DNA of 64,000 nucleotides from Pseudoxanthomonas mexicana (GTDB lineage Bacteria; Pseudomonadota; Gammaproteobacteria; Xanthomonadales; Xanthomonadaceae), in NCBI RefSeq assembly GCF_001556105.1, contig NZ_LSIF01000034.1, positions 112,064-176,063 on the forward strand, read 5' to 3'. A model generated the notes under the pieces. It was not told where the DNA came from, ran no database searches, and worked only from the letters and a program-made list of their open reading frames with translations. Within the stretch, counting starts at the first letter, position 1; every line of letters starts with the position of its first letter. The position numbers and the translations under genes are program-made. Shown here one piece after another: positions 52,482 to 64,000 of the stretch.

Positions 52482-54590
52482 GTGGCAAAAATCACCAAAA
52501 CCTTCCAGTACGGCAAGCACCAGGTCACCCTGGAAACCGGCGAAGTCGCCCGCCAGGCCGGCGGCGCCGTCGTCGTCAAGTTCGATGACACCGTGCTGCT
52601 GGTCACCGCCGTGGCCGCGAAGTCGGCCCGCGAAGGCCAGGACTTCTTCCCCCTGACGGTCGATTACCAGGAGAAGTTCTACGCCGGCGGCCGCATCCCG
52701 GGTGGCTTCTTCAAGCGCGAAGGTCGCGCGACCGAGAAGGAGACGCTGATCTCCCGCCTGATCGACCGCCCGCTGCGTCCGCTGTTCCCGGAAGAATTCC
52801 GCAACGAAGTGCAGGTCATCGCCACGGTGATGTCGCTGAACCCGGACATCGACGGTGACATCCCGGCGCTGATCGGTGCGTCCGCCGCCGTCGCCCTGAC
52901 CGGCGCGCCGTTCAATGGCCCGATCGGTGCCGCCAAGGTCGGTTACGTCAACGGCGAATACGTGTTGAACCCGACCGTCAGCGAACTGAAGGACTCCAAG
53001 CTGGAGCTCGTCGTCGCCGGTACCGCCAACGCCGTGCTGATGGTCGAATCCGAAGCCGCCGAGCTGTCGGAAGACGTGATGCTGGGCGCCGTGATGTTCG
53101 GTCACCGCGAGATGCAGAAGGTCATCGCCGTGATCAACGAGCTGGTCGCCGAGGCCGGCAAGCCGAAGTGGGACTGGCAGCCGCCGGCCAAGAACGAAGG
53201 CCTGATCGCCGCCCTGCGCACCGCCGTGGGCGACAGCCTCGCCGGCGCGTTCCAGGTGCGCGACAAGATCGAGCGCCGCGACACCATCTCCAGCCTGAAG
53301 AAGGCCATCATCGGTACGCTGGCCCCGCAGGCGGAAACCAATGCGTGGAGCACCGGCGACCTGTCGAAGGAATTCAGCGAGCAGGAATACCAGACCATGC
53401 GCGCCTCGGTCCTGAAGACCAAGGTCCGCATCGACGGCCGTGCGCTGGACCAGGTGCGTCCGATCTCCTCCAAGGTCAGCGTGCTGCCGCGCGTGCACGG
53501 CTCCTCGCTGTTCACCCGTGGCGAGACGCAGGCGATCGTCGCCGTCACCCTCGGCACCGCCCGTGACGGCCAGGTGATCGACGCCGTCGGCGGTGAGTGG
53601 AAGGACCACTTCCTGTTCCACTACAACTTCCCTCCGTTCTCGGTGGGCGAAGCCGGCCGCATGATGGGCCCGAAGCGTCGCGAGATCGGCCACGGCCGCC
53701 TCGCCAAGCGCGGCGTGCTCGCCGTGATGCCGACGATGGAAGCCTTCCCGTACACGATCCGCGTGGTCTCGGAAATCACCGAGTCGAACGGTTCGTCCTC
53801 GATGGCCTCGGTCTGCGGCAGCTCGCTGGCGCTGATGGATGCCGGCGTGCCGATCACCGCACCGGTCGCGGGCATCGCGATGGGCCTGGTGAAGGAAGGC
53901 GACGACTTCGTCGTGCTGAGCGACATCCTGGGTGACGAAGACCATCTGGGCGACATGGACTTCAAGGTCGCCGGTACCGCCAACGGCGTGTCCGCGCTGC
54001 AGATGGACATCAAGATCGAAGGCATCACCGAAGAGATCATGAAGCAGGCGCTGACGCAGGCGAAGGCCGGCCGACTGCACATCCTGGGCGAGATGGCCCA
54101 TGCGATGACCGCACCGCGCCAGGAGCTGAGCGAGTTCGCGCCGCGCCTGATCACCATCAAGATCCACCCCGACAAGATCCGCGAAGTGATCGGCAAGGGC
54201 GGTTCGGTGATCCAGGCGATCACCAAGGAAACCGGCACGCAGATCGACATCCAGGACGACGGCACCATCACCATCGCCTCGGTGAACGGCGCTGCCGGCC
54301 AGGCCGCCAAGGCCCGCATCGAGCAGATCACGTCCGACGTCGAGCCGGGCCGCATCTACGAAGGCAAGGTCGCCAAGATCATGGACTTCGGTGCGTTCGT
54401 CACCATCCTGCCGGGCAAGGACGGCCTGGTGCACGTGTCGCAGATCTCCAACGACCGCGTCGAGAAGGTCAGCGACGCGCTGAAGGAAGGCGACGTGGTC
54501 AAGGTCAAGGTGCTGGAAGTCGACAAGCAGGGCCGCATCCGCCTGTCGATCAAGGCCGTGGAAGAAGGCGAAGGCGTGTCGGCCGAGTAA
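52482..54590 (+). CDS. pnp: polyribonucleotide nucleotidyltransferase (PNPase)
   Basis: 702 residues, GTG start with AAGGAAA upstream. Two RNase-PH-like domains (first about residues 10-140, second about 310-520 with [13 protein letters not shown] and [11 protein letters not shown]), KH domain ([14 protein letters not shown], about 565-610) and S1 domain ([15 protein letters not shown], about 625-690). Phosphorolytic 3'-5' RNA decay in the degradosome. Last gene of this operon. Confidence 0.97.
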
Positions 54591-54618
54591 GCCGCGCGAC
54601 ATCGCGATGCGTGACGGA

Positions 54619-54642
54619 AAAGCGGGCTTCGGCCCGCTTTTT
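54619..54642 (+). terminator. rho-independent terminator after pnp
   Basis: AAAGCGGGC-TTCG-GCCCGCTTT followed by TT, 28 bp after the stop. Ends the rimP-pnp region. Confidence 0.9.
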
Positions 54643-54835
54643 CTTCGGGTCACTTGTTGCCCCGCTGCGGCCGATCGCGCCCGCACCTGTCCGCCCTGCA
54701 TCCCGTCGCGCGCGTCAGCCCCCTGTCGGAGGGCGCGCCATTTTTCTGGCTTCCGCACACGAGGCGGTCTCCGTGCGCCGGTTCCGTACTTGCTGAGCGC
54801 AGGCGGGTTTGGCCGCATCCGAGCCGTGCTGTTGC

Positions 54836-54858
54836 ACGGGAATCCCCGGTATTCCCGT
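54836..54858. promoter_or_regulatory. inverted repeat at enhancer position of the sigma-54 promoter
   Basis: ACGGGAAT-N7-ATTCCCGT, perfect 8-bp arms, about 86-108 bp upstream of the predicted sigma-54 start. That is where bacterial enhancer-binding proteins sit. It does not match the NtrC consensus (GCACC-N5-TGGTGC); the cognate activator is unknown. Confidence 0.5.
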
Positions 54859-54917
54859 CCTTCCCGCGCACCCGCATCGTTGCCATCTGCCGTCGCCGCA
54901 GTGCGGCGCTGTCGTTC

Positions 54918-54933
54918 TGGCACCGGACTTGCA
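54918..54933 (+). promoter_or_regulatory. sigma-54 (RpoN) promoter
   Basis: TGGCAC-CGGAC-TTGCA, a full match to the -24/-12 consensus TGGCAC-N5-TTGCA, including GG at -24 and GC at -12 with the required spacing. The predicted start is near 54944, leaving a leader of about 217 nt to the DUF3617 gene. Confidence 0.75.
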
Positions 54934-54960
54934 CGAGGCTATGCGCTTCACAGAATTTGG

Positions 54961-54974
54961 GAAATTCGAATTTC
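54961..54974. repeat. 14-bp perfect palindrome downstream of the sigma-54 start
   Basis: GAAATTC-GAATTTC, just before and touching the -35 of the sigma-28 promoter. A GAATTT copy lies 2 bp upstream. Possible repressor site. Confidence 0.45.
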
Positions 54975-54998
54975 AGTTTCGGGTCGGTCCGCCGATAA
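54972..54998 (+). promoter_or_regulatory. sigma-28 (FliA)-type promoter
   Basis: TTCAGTTT (54972-54979), exact 11-bp gap, GCCGATAA (54991-54998). The flagellar consensus is TAAAGTTT-N11-GCCGATAA: the -10 is a perfect match, the -35 matches 6 of 8, and the spacing is exact. Predicted start near 55005. Confidence 0.65.
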
Positions 54999-55005
54999 GG
55001 AACAA

Positions 55006-55046
55006 GAGAAGGTCGAAGAAATGCAGTGGGGAAAGCTGCCTTTCTC
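55006..55046 (+). other. stem-loop at the start of the sigma-28 transcript
   Basis: GAGAAGG (55006-55012) pairs with CTTTCTC (55040-55046) with one G-U, enclosing GCAG/CTGC. It would lie at the very 5' end of RNA from the sigma-28 promoter. Confidence 0.4.
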
Positions 55047-55160
55047 GAGTTGGCGAAGTGGCCGCGCCGGGTAGTCGCGGTGGACGCGTAATGGGGATTC
55101 GTCCGGCTAGTCCAGGCGATGGCGGCAACGAACGGGTTTTCGGGAACCCTGGGGAAATTG

Positions 55161-55796
55161 ATGGATGCGATGTCAGGCACGCTCGCGCGCGCCGGGGCCG
55201 GCGTGGTGCGCGCGGCGTACACCCAACCTTCCGCCTGCGCGCGCGGGTTGTTCACTCTGCTGATCGCGCTGGCATTGCTGCCGGGCGCCGTGCGGGCCAC
55301 CGGCGTCCACGCCAATCCCTACGCAGACCTGCCGGTGCGCAAGGCCGGCCTGTGGGAAGTCACGCTACAGGCCCACGCGCCCTCGGGTGCGGGCGGCCGC
55401 GTGCAACCCGCGATGACGGTGCTCCAGTGCACCGACGCCAAGGCGGAGCGCATCGTTCCCCTGTTCCTCCTTCCCGCACGGGAAGGATGCCAGCGCATCA
55501 CGGTCAAGAAGAACGCCGCGGGTGGGACCCACGATGTCAGCACCGTCTGCCAGACCCACGGGCAGCGTTCGGACATGCAGCTGACCCTCCGCGGCAACAT
55601 GCAGACCCGTTACGACGGGACGTACCGCGTCCAGCATCCAGGCACGCCCTCGGGCAACACCGCATCGGTGCCGTTCGAAGGACGTTGGCTGGGGCGCTGC
55701 AAGCCCGGCCAGCGCGCCGGTGACATGGTGCTGCCGAACGGCATCACGGTGAACACGGTGGACGACGCACGTCGTGCAAGCGAGCACGCGCATTGA
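55161..55796 (+). CDS. DUF3617 family exported protein
   Basis: 211 residues from the ATG at 55161, preceded by GGGGAAATTG; a start 42 bp upstream exists but has no ribosome site. A long N-region precedes the hydrophobic signal (about residues 30-46, LFTLLIALALLPGAVRA), so it is exported. DUF3617 features: KAGLWEVTLQAH at about residues 60-70, a Cys in TVLQCTDAKAE, then GCQRITVKKN, and the late beta segment FEGRWLGRCKPGQ. Function unknown. First gene downstream of the sigma-54/sigma-28 region, 152 bp before the giant gene. Confidence 0.8.
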   Translation: MDAMSGTLARAGAGVVRAAYTQPSACARGLFTLLIALALLPGAVRATGVHANPYADLPVRKAGLWEVTLQAHAPSGAGGRVQPAMTVLQCTDAKAERIVPLFLLPAREGCQRITVKKNAAGGTHDVSTVCQTHGQRSDMQLTLRGNMQTRYDGTYRVQHPGTPSGNTASVPFEGRWLGRCKPGQRAGDMVLPNGITVNTVDDARRASEHAH

Positions 55797-55948
55797 GCGG
55801 CGTCCGCGTCGTGGATGGGCCGTGCAACGCCCCGTGCCATCTGCCTTGCCATATGGGGATGGCGCCATGTCTACCACTTATTGCACAAGCATCACGGCTA
55901 TCGCCCGTGTCGCTTTCTAGCCTTTTTGCCTTCAGAACGGGACGGATC

Positions 55949-58900
55949 ATGCAGATTACCGCGGCACTACAGGGACGACGGGTCGGGACGACCGATCGAC
56001 GGAAAGGCAGGAGCGGCGTCTTCGCTGCGTTCGCATTGATGGCGCTGCTGGCGTTGTTCGTCCCGACGGTACACGCGCAGATCAAGAACGGTGGCTTCGA
56101 GGCGCAGAGCTTCTCCGAGTGGAAGCTGGAGCGCTACACCCGCTCGAGCAACGCGCTGACAACGGTGCCGCCGACCAATAGCAGCCAGCTGACGCTGGGT
56201 GCCGTACAAGAAACCCATCCCAGCACCAATACGCTCAACACTGCGTTTGGCGGCAATCTCCGCATCCTGACCACCGCAGGCGTCGCGGCCAACACCGGTG
56301 GCAATGGCGCCCGTTATCCGTTCTCCGGCGCGGCGTCCTCCCAACTCGGCGGTGACGGCGCACGTGCTGCCTACGCGATGGAGCAGGAAGCGACCATGGT
56401 GTTGAGCGACGTCGACCCGGTCGACGGCAAGGTCCATCTGCGCTTCGCGATGGCACCTGTCCTCAACAACCCCAACCATCCTGCAGGCCAGCAGCCGTTC
56501 TTCTTCGTCGAGGTCATCAACCTCACCAAAGGCGATACACAGCTCTTCCATACGTTCAATTATTCGAACCAGCCGGGCATCCCCTGGCAGCAGTACTCGA
56601 TGGGCTCCAACAACTACCAGTTCACCAACTGGCAGGGCTTCGACATCTCGCCGGGCAACGGTCGCCTGGACGTGGGCGATCAGATACGGCTGAAGGTCTA
56701 CGTGGCCAACTGCTCTGCCGGCGCCGCCAATCACACCGCCCAAGTCTATATGGACGTGTTCGGCTCGAAGATGCCGGGCCTCAGCGTGGCCGCCGTCGGT
56801 CCGTCGACGACAAAGCCCGGCCAGCAAGTCACCTACACCTACAACTACGTCAACAACTCCGGCGTCTATGCGCTGGGTTCAACGGTCCGGCTCGCCGCAC
56901 CGTTCACCGAGAACGGTCTGCCTCTGACGTTTGTGCCGGGCAGCTGGCCGGCGACGTGCACGGGCCCGTTCACCGGCACCGCGCCGCGGGGCGATTACAT
57001 CGAATGCCCGGTGGGCGATCTCGTGGCCGGCGCCGGCGGCAGTTTCCCGGTGACGTTCACCGTGCCCGCAGGCGCCGCTACGACGGGGCCCAACAACGTC
57101 ATCAACAACGGTGACTACGACGTTCGTGCGAACACGGTGAGTCCTTTCATCGGACCGCTCGTCAAGGCCACCATTTCGCCCGCGGCGACGACGTTGCTTG
57201 ACCTCGGCGTCAGCGTCAGCAATGGCAGCGTGCCCTCCTATCTGGTGGGGGGGGCGGTAGCCTATACGGTCACGGTGACCAACAACGGTCCCGTCGATGC
57301 CAACGGCGTAACGCTGTCGCAGACCCTGAGTGGTGCGACGGGTACAGCGGGTTGGACCTGCAGCGTGCCCGGTGGCAGCGCCGCCAGCTGCGGCGCGACC
57401 AGCAGCGGCTCTGGCCCCATCGCGACCGCGACCGCCAGCCTGCCGGTCGGCCAGTCGCTGGTCTACACCGTCACCGGCATCACCGCCACGGCGGCCGGCA
57501 CGCCGGTCGTGACCGTGGTCAGCGTGGCGCCGCCTGCGGGCATGTCCGACAGCGTCTCGGCCAACAACACCGACGGCATCAGTACGCCGGTCAGTGCCGC
57601 GCAGCACCTGCTCACCGCCAACACGATCGGCGCAGGTACCGGGCGTATCAATGCCATTCCTGCCGTCTACGCCTGTCCCTCCGGAGGGGCGCGGACGGCC
57701 TGCAGTTCCGAGAACCTGGGTGAAGGCCAGGAGGCCTACCTGACGGCGGTCGCCGCCAATGGTTCCATCTTCAAGGGGTGGACCGGCGGCTGCACCACGG
57801 TCACCGGCAACGAATGCCATGTGCGCATGGGCACACAGGACCTGCAGGTCACGGCCGAATTCGCCACGGTCTGGATGGTGACGCCGAGCATCACCGGCGG
57901 CACGCTCAACACCACGTCGCCACAGGTGGTCGAAGACGGGCAGGGCACCAGCTTCACGCTCACCCCAACCACCGCCGGCGATGTTCCGGTGATCACCACG
58001 CCGGGCGGTGCCAACACCTGCCAGGCCACGTTGAGTGGTCCCACTGCCGGTGCCTACACCTACTCCGTCACGCCGGTGACGCAGGACTGCGCGTTCCACG
58101 TGGCGTTCGTCAGCCAGCCGAGGCTGGTCATCGCCAAGACCGCGTCGATCGTCGCGCCCGCATCGGCTTCCGTCGGTGTGCCTTTCAGTTACACGATCAC
58201 GGTAAGCAATACGGGTGCGGCAGCGACGACGGCGACGGCGACGGTGACGGACGTGGTGCCGGCCGGGCTGACGATCGGTGCCTTGCCCGCGAACTGCGCG
58301 ACGAATCCGTCGGGTAGCCAGACCGTGGAATGCACGATCGCGGCGGGCCTGTCGAACGTGTCGCCTGGCAATGCGGTGAGCTTCGTGATTCCCGTAACGC
58401 CGCAGGCCTCCGTCAACAGCACGACCGTGTCGAACACCGCCAGCGTGACCGGCGGCGGCGATCCCGCGTGTGCGAGCGCAGGCAGCTGCGTCAGTGCGCC
58501 GGTGGATACCGCGATCACCGCGTCCAGCCTGGACATCGTCAAGACCGGCCCGCCGAGCGCCGTGGTCGGCGTGCCTTACGACTACATCGTCACGGTGACC
58601 AACACTGGTACCGGCGCGACGTCGGCGGCGGCAACGGTCACCGACCTGGTGCCGGCGGGCCTGGCCATCGGCACGCTGCCCGCGGGTTGCGCGACGAATC
58701 CGTCCGGCAGCCAGACCGTGGTGTGCACGATCGCCGCAGGGCTGTCGCATACCGCGCCCGGCAACGTGGCGAGCTACGCGATCCGCGTGACGCCGACCGT
58801 GGCCGCGGGCGCCAGCGTAGGCAATACGGCAAGCGTCACCGGCGGTGGCGATCCCGATTGCGCTGCCGGCTGCAGCAGCCAGACCGTCACCACCACCATC

Positions 58901-61900
58901 AGTGCGCCCGCCCTGGGCATCACCAAGCATGGCCCCGCGGCGGCCGTCGTCGGCGTGCCGTTCGACTACACCATCGTGGTCAGCAACAGCGGCACTGCCG
59001 ATGCGACGGCCGACGCGATCGTGACCGATACCGTGCCTGCCAACGTCGCGGTCAACAACGCCACGCCGAACTGCGCCATCGCCGGTCGTGACGTGACCTG
59101 CACCGTGGCCATGGCCGACCTGCAGATCGGTGAGCAGGCGACAATCACGATCAACGTCACGCCGGCCACCGCGGGCAGCGCGAGCAACACCGCGACCGTC
59201 ACCGGCGGCGGCGATCCGGGCTGTTCGGTCGGCTGCACCAGCACGCCGGTGACGACGGACGTTCTCGCCCAGGCGCCGGTCCTGCAGATCGCCAAATCGG
59301 TCAGCTCCACCGGTCCGTATGGCGTGGGCAGCGTGATCGCCTACCAGTTCGCGGTGACCAACACCGGCAACGTTGCTCTGACCGGGATCGTGGTGAACGA
59401 TGCACAGCTGGATGCACCGGCGGTATGTCCGTCGACGACGCTGCAGCCGGGTGCCAGCACTACCTGCACCGGCGCGCATACCGTCACGGCTGTGGAAGTC
59501 GCGGCGGGCAACGTGCACAACAGTGCGACCGTCAGCGGCCAGCCGCCGACCCCGCCGGGTGGCCCGATGCCGCCGGTGGTGACCAGCCTGCCTGGCGAGG
59601 TGGACACGGCAACCGAGCAGCTGCCGGCGATGACGGTGGTCAAGTCGGTCACGTCGACCGGCCCGTACAACACAGGCAGCGTGCTTGCCTATCAATTCCT
59701 GGTGACCAACACCGGCAACGTGATCCTGACGGGTGTCGTGGTGAACGACGCGCTGCTCGATGCGTCGGCCACGTGCGCGGCGACGACGCTGGCGCCGGGC
59801 GCGAACACCACCTGCAGCGGCATGCATACGGTGACGGCCGCGGAAGTGGCGGTGGGCAACGTGCACAACAGCGCGACGGTCAGCGGCCAGCCGCCGACCC
59901 CGCCAGGCGGCCCGACGCCGCCGACGATCACCAGCCCGCCGAGCTCGGTGGACACGGCGACCGAACAGGTGCCGGCGATGACGCTGGTGAAGTCGGTCAC
60001 TTCGACTGGTCCGTATCGCGCAGGCAGCACGATCACCTATCAGTTCGATGTGGAGAACACCGGCAACGTGACCCTGACGAACGTGTCCGTGACCGACGCG
60101 ATGGCCGGCCTGAGCGCGCTGACCTATGCGTGGCCGGGCGTGGCCGGGCAACTGCAGCCGGGCGAGAAGGTCGTGGCGAACGCGACCTACAGCGTGACGC
60201 CTGACGATGTGCTGGACGGCCAGGTGCGCAACAGCGCCACCGCCGCAGGCCAGCCGCCGACCCCGCCGGGAGGCACGCAGCCGCCAGGCGTGAGCACGCC
60301 CTCCAGCAGCGTCGATACGGCCATCCTGCCGGTGGTGAATGCGGTGGACGATGCCCTGGCAGCCGTCGACGGCGCCAGCGGCAACCCGTCGGCCGGCAAC
60401 GCCTACGGCAATGACGTGATCAATGGTGCGGCGGTGGATCCGTCGCGGATCGCCGGCACGGTGACGACGCCTGCGACCTCCATCAACGGCGGTCCGGTAC
60501 CCGTGCTGGATCCGGCATCGGGCGTGGTGAGCGTGCCGGCGGGAACGCCGGCCGGGGTATACACCATCGGCTATCGCATCTGCGAATCGCTGAATCCGGA
60601 CAACTGCGACGATGCCGTGGTCACGCTGACCGTGGTGGCGACGGCGATCAACGCCGAGCAGGATGCGTTCGTCCCGATCCGCAGCGGCACGGGTGGAACA
60701 TCCCCCAGCGTGCTGGGCAACGACACCTTGGGCGGCGGTCCCGCCCTGATCGGCCAGGTCACGCTGGTGCCGGGCAGTTCGCCGCGCGCGGGACTGGTGA
60801 TGAACCCCGATGGCACGGTGACCATCGCCGTGGGCACGCCGCCCGGCACCTACCGTTACTCGTACACCCTCTGCGAGGTGTTGAATCCGACCAACTGCGA
60901 TACGGCCGACGCCATCGTGGTGGTCAGCGGTGAAGCACAGCTGCGCGTGACCAAGACCGCAGGCGTGCGCGATGCGCAGACCGGCGACCTGGTGCGCTAC
61001 ACGGTGTCGGTCGAAAACCTGGGTGATGGTCCGCTGGTCAACGGCAGCATCATCGATACGCCCGCGGCGGGCTTCAGCTACGTGGAAGGCTCGTTGGCGG
61101 TCACCGACGGCGACAATGCGGCCACCGTGTCCGGCCAACATCCGGTGCGCTTCGAAGGCCTGGACATCGCGGTCGGCGGCAGCGCCAGGCTGGCGTACAT
61201 GATGCGCGTGGGCGCAGGTGCGCGCGCAGGTACGCAGGTCAACCAGGCGCAGGCGGTATCGTCGTCCGGTGAAGTGCTGTCGAACGTGGCGACCGCCGAA
61301 GTGACGCTGGTGGCGAACGCGATGGTGGAGGACAGCCTGATCTTCGGCACGGTCTTCAACGACCGCGATGGCGATGGCTGGCAAGACAGTGCCGTGTTGA
61401 GCGGCATCCGCGTGCAGGGTGGATTCGCAGCTGGGGCCTATGTGGCCGGCTCGACCACGCTGGATCGTGGCGCAGGTCCGCAACCTCAGCCCGATGCCAG
61501 CGCTCTGCTGCTACACGGGATCGACCTGGGCCAGGTGGAAGGTCGCCAGTCCAGGGCCGATCCGCTGCATGGCCGGCAGGTGGTGATCCGCCAGACGCTG
61601 CGCGAACTGTCCTTCACCGACGATTTCGTGCTCACCAACGACCAGGGCGTGACGCTGCGGATGGATCGCAACGGCACGACCTCGGTGGTCACCACTGCCC
61701 AAGCGGCCAAGGGACTCACGGCGGCGATGCCGACCGTGGAGCGCAGGGTCGCCCAGGGCAGCGACGGTTACGTCGTGGACTACATCATCGGCAATGCCGG
61801 TATCGATGAGCGTGGTGTCCCGGGCGTGCGCATCGCCACGGTGGAAGGCGTGTTGATCGAAACCGATCAGTTCGGCCGTTATCACCTGGTGGGCGTGTCG

Positions 61901-62662
61901 GGTGGCGCATGGGCGCGCGGGCGCAACCTGATCATGAAGGTGGACCCGTCCACGCTTCCCGCCGGGACGCGGATGACCACCGACAATCCGTTGCTGCGCC
62001 GGGTCACGCCTGGCGTGCCGGTCCGCTTCGACTGGGGCGTGACCTTGCCCGAGCAGGCGATCGGCGGTGGTAGCGGGCAACTGGAACTCGAGCTGGGCGA
62101 GGTGCATTTCGCGCCGGGCAGTGCCCAGCTTCCGCCGAGGTACGCGCCGCTGATGACGGCCATGGCCAGCAAGGTGCGCGAGCACCAGGGCGGGGAGGTG
62201 GTGATCCAGGCGGATGGCGAATACGAGGCGCTGGCGTTCGATCGTGCCAACGCGGTGAAGGACGCCTTGCTGGCGCAACTCGACGGTCCGGCCGCCAGGG
62301 CGCTGGTCGTCAGTGTCCGCGCACGTCCGGAGGCGCCGGCATCGCTGTTGACCGGTGTACGCGGGGACGCTGCGCTGTTGGGCACGGTGTTGTTCGACAC
62401 CGACCAGGCGACGATCCGGGCCGAGTTCGTCCCGCTGCTGGACACGATCGCCGCTGCGATCGAGCGCAGCGGGGGAGGCAACGTGGCCATCGTCGGCCAT
62501 GCCGACCGGCGAGGTTCCCATGCCTACAACACGGAGCTCGGGATGCGACGCGCGAAGTCGGTGTTCGACGCGCTGGCCACACGGCTCGGTGCATCGGCAC
62601 GCAGCGCGTTGCGGGTGGAAATCGAAAGCGACCCGATTGCGCCGCAGGGCGCACGGAAATGA
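55949..62662 (+). CDS. giant repeat surface protein with DUF11-type repeats and C-terminal OmpA-like domains
   Basis: 2237 residues from the ATG at 55949, the only start followed by a signal peptide (cleavage VHA-Q near residue 43). Approximate order: N-terminal beta domain 45-270 (IKNGGFEAQSFSEWKLERY); DUF11-like repeats 275-550; InlB-like segment 550-638 (FKGWTGGC); DUF11 repeats 724-1111, two of them with near-identical GCATNPSGSQTV stretches 393 bp apart; three 116-residue repeats 1112-1458; two cadherin-like domains 1461-1662 (YRICESLNPDNCDDA; YTLCEVLNPTNCDTA); DUF11 1662-1791; an SdrD-like/carboxypeptidase-regulatory region 1792-2045 (FNDRDGDGWQD, FGRYHLVGVSGG); and two OmpA-like domains, 2046-2141 degenerate and 2142-2237 canonical (GHADRRGSHAYNTELGMRRAKSV). 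It should span the periplasm anchored on peptidoglycan, or be surface-exposed. No paralogue name assigned. Confidence 0.85.
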   Translation: MQITAALQGRRVGTTDRRKGRSGVFAAFALMALLALFVPTVHAQIKNGGFEAQSFSEWKLERYTRSSNALTTVPPTNSSQLTLGAVQETHPSTNTLNTAFGGNLRILTTAGVAANTGGNGARYPFSGAASSQLGGDGARAAYAMEQEATMVLSDVDPVDGKVHLRFAMAPVLNNPNHPAGQQPFFFVEVINLTKGDTQLFHTFNYSNQPGIPWQQYSMGSNNYQFTNWQGFDISPGNGRLDVGDQIRLKVYVANCSAGAANHTAQVYMDVFGSKMPGLSVAAVGPSTTKPGQQVTYTYNYVNNSGVYALGSTVRLAAPFTENGLPLTFVPGSWPATCTGPFTGTAPRGDYIECPVGDLVAGAGGSFPVTFTVPAGAATTGPNNVINNGDYDVRANTVSPFIGPLVKATISPAATTLLDLGVSVSNGSVPSYLVGGAVAYTVTVTNNGPVDANGVTLSQTLSGATGTAGWTCSVPGGSAASCGATSSGSGPIATATASLPVGQSLVYTVTGITATAAGTPVVTVVSVAPPAGMSDSVSANNTDGISTPVSAAQHLLTANTIGAGTGRINAIPAVYACPSGGARTACSSENLGEGQEAYLTAVAANGSIFKGWTGGCTTVTGNECHVRMGTQDLQVTAEFATVWMVTPSITGGTLNTTSPQVVEDGQGTSFTLTPTTAGDVPVITTPGGANTCQATLSGPTAGAYTYSVTPVTQDCAFHVAFVSQPRLVIAKTASIVAPASASVGVPFSYTITVSNTGAAATTATATVTDVVPAGLTIGALPANCATNPSGSQTVECTIAAGLSNVSPGNAVSFVIPVTPQASVNSTTVSNTASVTGGGDPACASAGSCVSAPVDTAITASSLDIVKTGPPSAVVGVPYDYIVTVTNTGTGATSAAATVTDLVPAGLAIGTLPAGCATNPSGSQTVVCTIAAGLSHTAPGNVASYAIRVTPTVAAGASVGNTASVTGGGDPDCAAGCSSQTVTTTISAPALGITKHGPAAAVVGVPFDYTIVVSNSGTADATADAIVTDTVPANVAVNNATPNCAIAGRDVTCTVAMADLQIGEQATITINVTPATAGSASNTATVTGGGDPGCSVGCTSTPVTTDVLAQAPVLQIAKSVSSTGPYGVGSVIAYQFAVTNTGNVALTGIVVNDAQLDAPAVCPSTTLQPGASTTCTGAHTVTAVEVAAGNVHNSATVSGQPPTPPGGPMPPVVTSLPGEVDTATEQLPAMTVVKSVTSTGPYNTGSVLAYQFLVTNTGNVILTGVVVNDALLDASATCAATTLAPGANTTCSGMHTVTAAEVAVGNVHNSATVSGQPPTPPGGPTPPTITSPPSSVDTATEQVPAMTLVKSVTSTGPYRAGSTITYQFDVENTGNVTLTNVSVTDAMAGLSALTYAWPGVAGQLQPGEKVVANATYSVTPDDVLDGQVRNSATAAGQPPTPPGGTQPPGVSTPSSSVDTAILPVVNAVDDALAAVDGASGNPSAGNAYGNDVINGAAVDPSRIAGTVTTPATSINGGPVPVLDPASGVVSVPAGTPAGVYTIGYRICESLNPDNCDDAVVTLTVVATAINAEQDAFVPIRSGTGGTSPSVLGNDTLGGGPALIGQVTLVPGSSPRAGLVMNPDGTVTIAVGTPPGTYRYSYTLCEVLNPTNCDTADAIVVVSGEAQLRVTKTAGVRDAQTGDLVRYTVSVENLGDGPLVNGSIIDTPAAGFSYVEGSLAVTDGDNAATVSGQHPVRFEGLDIAVGGSARLAYMMRVGAGARAGTQVNQAQAVSSSGEVLSNVATAEVTLVANAMVEDSLIFGTVFNDRDGDGWQDSAVLSGIRVQGGFAAGAYVAGSTTLDRGAGPQPQPDASALLLHGIDLGQVEGRQSRADPLHGRQVVIRQTLRELSFTDDFVLTNDQGVTLRMDRNGTTSVVTTAQAAKGLTAAMPTVERRVAQGSDGYVVDYIIGNAGIDERGVPGVRIATVEGVLIETDQFGRYHLVGVSGGAWARGRNLIMKVDPSTLPAGTRMTTDNPLLRRVTPGVPVRFDWGVTLPEQAIGGGSGQLELELGEVHFAPGSAQLPPRYAPLMTAMASKVREHQGGEVVIQADGEYEALAFDRANAVKDALLAQLDGPAARALVVSVRARPEAPASLLTGVRGDAALLGTVLFDTDQATIRAEFVPLLDTIAAAIERSGGGNVAIVGHADRRGSHAYNTELGMRRAKSVFDALATRLGASARSALRVEIESDPIAPQGARK
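59282..60322 (+). repeat. three tandem 348-bp repeats inside the giant gene
   Basis: Units begin at 59282, 59630 and 59978, an exact period of 348 bp (116 codons). Units 1 and 2 are highly similar (KSV-STGPY, VHNSATVSGQPPTPPGGP); unit 3 is more diverged and has lost the two cysteines of the first two units. Confidence 0.9.
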
Positions 62663-62673
62663 GGGGGCGGGTC

Positions 62674-64000
62674 ATGGACAAGCGCATGAAGATGAAGCTG
62701 TTGGACTACACATTGATCTCTCTGCTGGCCGGCACGGCACCGATGGCCGTCGCGCAGGACGCCACGGCCCCGCAGGTGCAAGCCGCGGCGGAAGGTGAAA
62801 GCGCGTCAGTGACGTGCGATGCGGAGCGCTGCACCAGCGAGGATGGCCTGTTCTTCCGGTTGCGCACGCGCAGCTACGACAGCCCGGTCACCGCCGGTAC
62901 CGACGCGCATGCGTCATCGGCTGCGCTGCAGCCCGACCGTCGCGTGACGGTGGCGACGGAGTCGCCGGCCAAGGCGGTCGTGACGGGCAAATTCTCGATC
63001 GACGTGCCCGGTGGCGGGGTGGTCTGGGCGACCGAAGATCCCACGCTTGGCCAGCCGGAGCTGTCGGTGTCGGCACCGTCGTTCGCACCGTTCGATGGCA
63101 CGCGCATCCTCAAGCCCGTGCCGTTCTACGTGCGCGGCAACTACCCGGCCTTCATCGACACGCTGGAGATCAGTGTCTATCGCGCCAGCGATGCGGATCT
63201 GATCGAGCCGCTGGCGACCGTGCCGCTGGATGTGGCGGCGGTCAGTCGCGTGGAATGGGACGGCGCACTGCCGACCAAGTACCCGTTCCGCAAGGGCGAC
63301 GAACTGGTCTATGTGCTGCGCGCCACCGGTGCCAATGGCCAGATCGACGAAACCTTGCCGCGTACGCTGCAACTGGTCTCGCCGGAGGAAGCGGAACGCG
63401 GCGCCAATGCGTTGCGCAACAGCACCGAGCGTCAGCTCGGCAATGCGCTCAGCGTGGAGCAGGCGCAGTCGCAGAGCCTGATCGACAGCGTGTTCGCGGA
63501 GAATGGCCTGCGCCGCCAGAACATTCCGCTGTACGGGTCGCGGATCCGTATCCAGGGGCGCAACCTGCCGCGTGAAGCGTCGCTGAGCATCAATGGCCAG
63601 AACTACCCGGTGGACCTGGAGCGCAAGTTCGTCGCCGAGTACCTGGTGCCGGTGGGACGGCATCGCTTCGATATCGCGTTGGATGGAAAGCGTGCCGACG
63701 CTACACAGGCATCGCCGCCGGTCCACACACTGGAGGTCGATGTCAGCGGACGCTACTTCTTCGGTGTCGGCCTGGCCGACGTGAGCATTTCCCAGAACAA
63801 GATCAACGGATCGCAGACGCCATTCCAGGGTGATGCTCGCTATCAGGACGACGTGATCAGCGATGGCCGACTCGCCTTCTACGGCAAGGCCAAGTTGGGT
63901 GGAAGGTATCTGGTGACGGCGCAGGCCGATACCACGCAGCGCGATCTCGACCGCCTGTTCAACGGGTTCACCAATGCCAATCCGCAGGACATCTTCCGTC
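62674..64000 (+). CDS. large secreted/outer-membrane partner of the DUF11-OmpA protein, 3' truncated by window
   Basis: Open from the ATG at 62674 to the window end, 442 codons so far, 11 bp after the giant gene (GAGGGGGCGG upstream). Signal peptide residues 1-27 (LISLLAGTAPMAVAQ). Early Cys pair in TCDAERCTSEDG. The rest is beta-rich. Near the cut end is GRLAFYGKAKLGGRYLVTAQ, then ADTTQRDLDRLFNGF, a pattern I associate with predicted outer-membrane barrels encoded next to DUF11/OmpA genes (from memory, unchecked). Probably co-transcribed with the giant gene. Confidence 0.75.
   Translation, partial: MDKRMKMKLLDYTLISLLAGTAPMAVAQDATAPQVQAAAEGESASVTCDAERCTSEDGLFFRLRTRSYDSPVTAGTDAHASSAALQPDRRVTVATESPAKAVVTGKFSIDVPGGGVVWATEDPTLGQPELSVSAPSFAPFDGTRILKPVPFYVRGNYPAFIDTLEISVYRASDADLIEPLATVPLDVAAVSRVEWDGALPTKYPFRKGDELVYVLRATGANGQIDETLPRTLQLVSPEEAERGANALRNSTERQLGNALSVEQAQSQSLIDSVFAENGLRRQNIPLYGSRIRIQGRNLPREASLSINGQNYPVDLERKFVAEYLVPVGRHRFDIALDGKRADATQASPPVHTLEVDVSGRYFFGVGLADVSISQNKINGSQTPFQGDARYQDDVISDGRLAFYGKAKLGGRYLVTAQADTTQRDLDRLFNGFTNANPQDIFR

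Follow-up and report, generated by a model that had tools for sequence, protein, structure and literature searches.

The window, a stretch of 64,000 nucleotides (64 kb) of Pseudoxanthomonas mexicana DNA, contained downstream of pnp the greater part of a predicted three-gene surface operon preceded by two promoter-like boxes, all on the forward strand (Table 1). The original prediction had placed two such boxes, 38 bp apart, in front of a DUF3617 gene and a DUF11/OmpA gene. The sequence confirmed the position, strand and spacing of the boxes, and a domain search confirmed the identity of the two genes at which they point. The DUF3617 open reading frame is open from 55119, and Met 15 of this long frame, which was invariant in the alignment of relatives, is its probable start. 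The second gene encodes DUF11 repeats and a C-terminal OmpA domain and adjoins a gene for a large barrel partner, which together are the features that mark a DUF11-OmpA surface operon. The third product is probably a large outer-membrane barrel; its predicted structure was strand-rich but of low confidence (mean pLDDT 52.3, pTM 0.32). Sequence searches of the PDB gave no meaningful relative (best E values 0.85 and 0.65). No relatives of the DUF3617 protein were found in viral contigs. The DUF3617 protein of the window shared 99% identity, across 94% of the query, with a protein named as P. japonensis (P0001); the DUF3617 protein of P. japonensis DSM 17109 was only about 74% identical to that of the window, and the species name on P0001 may be wrong.

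Table 1. Features in and around the pnp-linked surface operon (positions in the window; L001–L004, loci of four other Pseudoxanthomonas species)
Feature	Position	Strand	Remarks
Terminator-like hairpin followed by a T run, at the end of pnp	54620..54639	+	kept in L001–L004; not returned by a simple terminator scan
σ54 (RpoN) type -24/-12 box TGGCACCGGACTTGCA (TGGCAC-N5-TTGCA)	54918..54933	+	predicted start ~54944
Inverted repeat GAATTT-ggg-AAATTC	54953..54967	+	one half shared with the palindrome; partly kept in relatives
Palindrome GAAATTCGAATTTC	54961..54974	+	perfect, 14 bp; between the promoters, overlapping the σ28 -35; possible operator or UP-like element
σ28 (FliA) type -35/-10, TTCAGTTT-cgggtcggtcc-GCCGATAA (N11)	54972..54998	+	predicted start ~55004-55005
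DUF3617 protein	55161..55796	+	PF12276, E 8.9e-10; predicted to be secreted or periplasmic from its N-terminus
Giant DUF11/DUF7507 repeat protein with C-terminal OmpA domain	55949..62662	+	2237 aa
Probable outer-membrane beta-barrel protein, start of gene	62659..64000	+	truncated by the end of the window; 1243 aa long in P. japonensis DSM 17109

The terminator-like hairpin at the end of pnp implies that the operon downstream requires a promoter of its own. A strict scan of 54560-56060 gave no σ70-type promoter. The leader was also considered as a regulatory RNA, and this was rejected: four Rfam matches were all far below their gathering scores, and the 176-nt leader folded no better than its shuffles (z 0.09). 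Directly before the Shine-Dalgarno sequence of the DUF3617 gene lay a small hairpin, GGGTT-ttcggg-AACCC (55134-55149), whose pairing was retained in L003 as GGGCT...AGCCT.

The upstream box contained the GG and GC dinucleotides of a σ54 promoter, 10 bp apart. An exact match occurred only once in the window on both strands, and in shuffled sequences the mean was 0.04, with one match in 4 of 100 shuffles. On the scale of genomes, exact TGGCAC-N5-TTGC was found 17, 20, 25, and 15 times in four genomes (G001–G004), respectively, and 6, 5, 1, and 9 times in the controls; this abundance of half-patterns, 15-25 per genome against 1-9, counts against a reading of dual control. No activator site for the σ54 promoter was found, nor was a conserved upstream element seen in the relatives. 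A perfect inverted repeat, ACGGGAAT-ccccggt-ATTCCCGT, was present at 54836-54858, with its center about 97 bp before the predicted σ54 start, which is a usual distance for an activator site. This repeat was rejected as an activator site because, by eye, it was not kept in the relatives.

The downstream box begins 38 bp after TTGCA. When the window was searched with TAAAGTTT-N11-GCCGATAA allowing two mismatches, this site was the sole match, there was none in 100 shuffles, and no second N11 site reached 12/16; for a 4.3-Mb genome of like composition, the analytic estimate was 0.19 sites at up to two mismatches and 3.6 at up to three. The -10 element GCCGATAA matched at 8/8 positions in the window, L001, and L002 and at 7/8 in L003 and L004, and the N11 spacing was found in all five copies. 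The -35 element fitted less well: TTCAGTTT matched at 6/8 positions and, in each of the five copies, had C instead of A as its third base, so that the TAAAG/AAG core was missing. Its TTCAG departs from the host consensus T[ACG]AAG and is without the AAG core of most host sites. With a matrix built from 14 host sites, which were picked by consensus search and hence bias it towards the consensus, the scores were 17.9 for the window, L001, and L002, 16.6 for L004, and 12.5 for L003, and the leave-one-out scores of the host sites were 17.4-25.9. The claim that these are RpoN and FliA consensus promoters held, as far as sequence goes, for the σ54 box and for the -10 element and spacing of the σ28 site; it failed at the σ28 -35. 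At three mismatches or fewer, the σ28 pattern was found at 18, 14, 12, and 8 sites in G001–G004 and at 5, 6, 7, and 11 sites in the reversed control. Many of the three-mismatch sites must therefore be due to chance (52 sites in the four genomes vs 29 in the control). The site of the operon was among the matches in all four genomes, with 2, 2, 3, and 3 mismatches.

In a search for DUF3617 relatives, 21 loci were returned, and four of them, from further Pseudoxanthomonas species in which the operon was found next to pnp (L001–L004, the last a metagenome-assembled genome), kept the order pnp - DUF3617 - repeat gene - barrel gene. The box pair was present in all four, whereas the flanks and the spacer had diverged. 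Among the window, L001, L002, and L004, the invariant positions were 14 of 16 in the σ54 box, 8 of 8 in the -35, and 7 of 8 in the -10; the counts for the upstream flank, the stretch between the boxes, the N11 spacer, and the downstream flank were 7 of 60, 11 of 27, 3 of 11, and 6 of 49, respectively. The boxes were 38 bp apart in these four copies and 48 bp apart in L003, about one helical turn more, where the -10 was GACGATAA. The palindrome was invariant at 11 of 14 positions in the same four copies; of it, GAAATNNNNATTTC was kept in L001, L002, and L004 and GAAATTTCGGTTTC in L003. On its own the palindrome is unremarkable, because shuffles yielded 0.34 per window at one mismatch or fewer, and it could account for part of the conservation of the -35. 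Within the operon, the gap between the DUF3617 and repeat genes (55796-55949) contained a block from about 55874 that was well kept in L002 and L003, partly in L004, and not in L001. The repeat gene varied widely in length, with called open reading frames of 2078 to 3463 aa in L001–L004, as is to be expected if DUF11 repeats are gained and lost.

DUF3617 was found in 4 of 38 genomes of the genus, and the same four also encoded the N-terminal region of the repeat protein; in the family, DUF3617 at E 1e-25 or better occurred in 9 of 395 genomes. A composite pattern, TGGCAC-N5-TTGC-N30..60-GTTT-N13-CGATA, was found once each in 4 of the 395 family genomes, always at this locus, with no match in the reversed control. 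Since the pattern was drawn from this locus, it would miss tandems with other -35 sequences; the search shows that this particular pair is unique, and σ54/σ28 tandems may occur elsewhere.

Other loci were compared under common thresholds (at most two mismatches for σ54, at least 11/16 at N10-N12 for σ28, within 700 bp upstream), under which all five pnp-linked copies show the pair. No comparable pair was seen at six distant DUF3617 operons, at seven loci of the Acidovorax type, or at 12 loci with paralogous DUF11-OmpA genes. Among the distant loci, L007, L086, and L090 had no match, and the upstream region of L090 is a poor test, as its DUF3617 gene may sit 3' of other operon genes. L005 had a single 11/16 σ28-like site (TTGAGTTT-N11-GTCGCTAG), perhaps a remnant that has diverged, L006 likewise had one 11/16 site, and L088 had a single two-mismatch σ54-like site. 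L089 alone among the distant loci had weak versions of both boxes: a two-mismatch σ54-like site was followed about 120 bp on by an 11/16 σ28-like site (TCAAGCGG-N12-GCCGATAG), with a further 11/16 site. In the Acidovorax-type loci (L008–L014, of which L013 is from a genome of Gammaproteobacteria), a shorter DUF11 gene lay 5' of DUF3617, and upstream of this gene one 11/16 site was found, in L009 only. The shorter protein, of 805-1114 aa, aligned with the repeat protein of the window at its N-terminal part only. DUF3617 follows it in these loci; the partnership of DUF3617 and DUF11 predates the present operon form.

Homologues of the barrel gene were found in 31 of the 38 genus genomes, at up to three copies each. 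Fifteen paralogous loci were fetched, and 12 were scanned after L123, L124, and L136, in which the repeat gene runs off the contig, were left out. From -700 to +300 around the open reading frame start, which was called by script and is doubtful in L126, L129, and L130, L135 alone of these 12 gave any match; it had two weak ones, and one lay inside the gene. Within this test, therefore, the pair is a feature of the pnp-linked copy rather than of the gene family as a whole, and, given the six distant operons and 12 paralogous loci without a comparable pair, this wiring is that of one clade. The conservation that the original prediction had proposed to examine across Xanthomonadaceae was accordingly found in the four Pseudoxanthomonas genomes with the locus and did not extend, as a pair, to distant or paralogous loci.

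In flagellar gene stretches of the relatives, σ54 boxes were found before flgB (TGGCACACGCCTTGCA), flgA (TGGCACACCGCTTGCA), fliE, fliL, flhB, and others, the gene names being assigned by reading protein starts. By eye, no element common to the flanks of these promoters and this locus was seen. For the σ28-like sites, DNA was available for 30 of the 52 in G001–G004; three were this locus, and 27 others were examined. Fourteen of the 27 preceded flagellar or chemotaxis genes, namely flgM (L094, L099, L100, L105, and L109, the last two being neighboring sites of one gene), flagellin (L107 and L114), cheY-like (L110, L112, and L115), ycgR (L106 and L111), and chemoreceptor-like genes (L093 and L102). 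Nine preceded GGDEF, HDOD, or HD-receiver genes (L092, L096, L097, L098, L103, L108, L113, L116, and L118), and four fell in neither class (L091, L117, L119, and L120). Fifteen of the proteins after these sites were domain-scanned and the remainder assigned by likeness of their starts, and the 27 sites are not independent cases, because many are orthologues across the four genomes. The recurrence of FliA-type sites before GGDEF, HDOD, and HD-receiver genes points to a possible link of FliA to c-di-GMP signaling. FliA itself was detected above the family cut-off in 28 of the 38 genus genomes, including all four with the locus. In DSM 17109, the one strain checked, FleQ (PF06490), a receiver-domain protein, and RpoN were encoded in a row, adjoining a gene read as fliE; this order resembles the fleQ - response regulator - rpoN2 order described for Xanthomonas campestris (PMC7280030).

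These sequence comparisons suggest that the operon is under dual control by RpoN and FliA through two tandem flagellar-type promoters, to which we assign a probability of about 0.68, a figure that excludes the function of the products. The boxes were conserved in 4 of 4 relatives and are of the types that precede flagellar genes in this lineage, so the reading that fits best is control by the flagellar cascade. The proposal that the locus is switched with the flagellar cascade was supported to that extent; the -35 lies off the consensus, and FleQ need not be the activator. This last point leads to an arrangement that we regard as unlikely, in which both sites work and the σ54 promoter answers a non-flagellar activator, e.g. 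of the PilR or NtrC kind, so that the operon joins two programs. It would agree with flanks that, by eye, have no element in common with flagellar σ54 promoters and with a palindrome absent from the other stretches compared, except for one unrelated locus (L020), whereas the box type and the neighboring FliA site suit the flagellar cascade, and FleQ and RpoN lie within the flagellar cluster of one species.

The imperfect -35 bears on the second site. If the σ54 promoter alone mattered, the A+T-rich element formed by GAAATTCGAATTTC and its neighbors would bind a dedicated regulator or serve as an UP-like element, with the likeness to FliA sites being secondary. The overlap of the palindrome with the -35, its retention in L001, L002, and L004, the departure from the host consensus, and the low score of L003 all favor this; we nevertheless think it rather improbable, since the -10 (CGATA) and the N11 spacing, outside the palindrome, were conserved in all five copies and the spacer between was not (3/11). 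That the second site is an ordinary σ70 promoter of the TTTCAG-N17-GATAAT type seems very unlikely: the -10 reads GATAAT in L002 and L003, but GATAAG in the window and L001 and GATAGG in L004, with loss of the last T of the σ70 -10, and the strict scan of 54560-56060 had given no σ70-type site. Consensus matches are weak evidence by themselves, as the 29 σ28-like sites of the reversed control illustrate, but functionless chance matches are scarcely credible for boxes that occur once in 64 kb, have been conserved across five species despite diverged flanks, and were found as a pair nowhere else in 395 genomes.

Under dual RpoN/FliA control, the three genes for the DUF3617 protein, the DUF11/OmpA repeat protein, and the large outer-membrane barrel would be read from both tandem promoters. 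RpoN polymerase with an enhancer-binding protein, for which FleQ is the first candidate, would start near 54944 during expression of the basal-body genes. Upon completion of the hook-basal body and export of FlgM, a step that is established for the flagellar cascade, FliA polymerase would start near 55005 in a second wave. For this operon we infer the use of both promoters, the identity of the activator, and the FlgM step. Judged from their domains, the peptidoglycan-anchored giant repeat protein and its barrel partner may be displayed on swimming-phase cells as an adhesin or coat, with a role in motility or attachment. The most economical reading is that, in this clade, an extra copy of the giant surface operon, with DUF3617, came under the flagellar cascade. 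More tentatively, and at rather less than even odds, the operon may have been captured at two tiers (early by RpoN and late by FliA) in one Pseudoxanthomonas clade, so that swimming cells, not biofilm cells, build a peptidoglycan-anchored DUF11 fiber, with the conserved palindrome adding a third input.

In Xanthomonas oryzae, RpoN2 and FleQ act on the fliS-fliTX-flgZ operon through FliA (PMC5550985); the Xanthomonas RpoN2-FleQ-FliA cascade has the regulators found in this lineage and the same promoter types, whereas at this locus tandem promoters of two types stand before a non-flagellar surface operon. In Pseudomonas putida, FleQ activates the adhesin gene lapA, and matrix genes are assigned to control independent of σN and FliA (PMC5026340). 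A giant surface protein under a flagellar regulator is common to both cases, but the Pseudoxanthomonas operon has σ54 and FliA boxes. In Escherichia coli, flagellar promoters under dual regulation are found, and FliA sites also occur at non-flagellar genes (PMC4183435), so that FliA is paired with a second promoter and has sites outside the flagellar genes as here; the partner there is an FlhDC-dependent σ70 promoter, not σ54. More broadly, σ54 has been linked to the bacterial exterior (PMC3162934). The widespread Xanthomonadaceae DUF11-OmpA/barrel operon has its two large genes in common with the pnp-linked copy, which adds DUF3617 (4 of 38 genomes) and the two promoters.

The locus had been put forward as a candidate for an undescribed system. 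No publications on DUF3617 were found in the literature searched; judged by titles and the beginnings of abstracts, none on DUF11, OmpA, and outer-membrane repeats dealt with this locus, nor, by title, did any of the matches listed for tandem RpoN/FliA promoters with adhesins or surface proteins. Its parts, however, belong to domain families already known, and regulation by σ54 and FliA together is of a known kind.

Giant adhesins usually go with a sessile way of life and stand in opposition to flagella. If this operon is wired to both flagellar sigma factors, it would be a clear case of a giant surface structure made for the swimming or landing phase, and the paralogues without the pair would let the same gene family be compared, as it occurs in nature, under two regulatory regimes.
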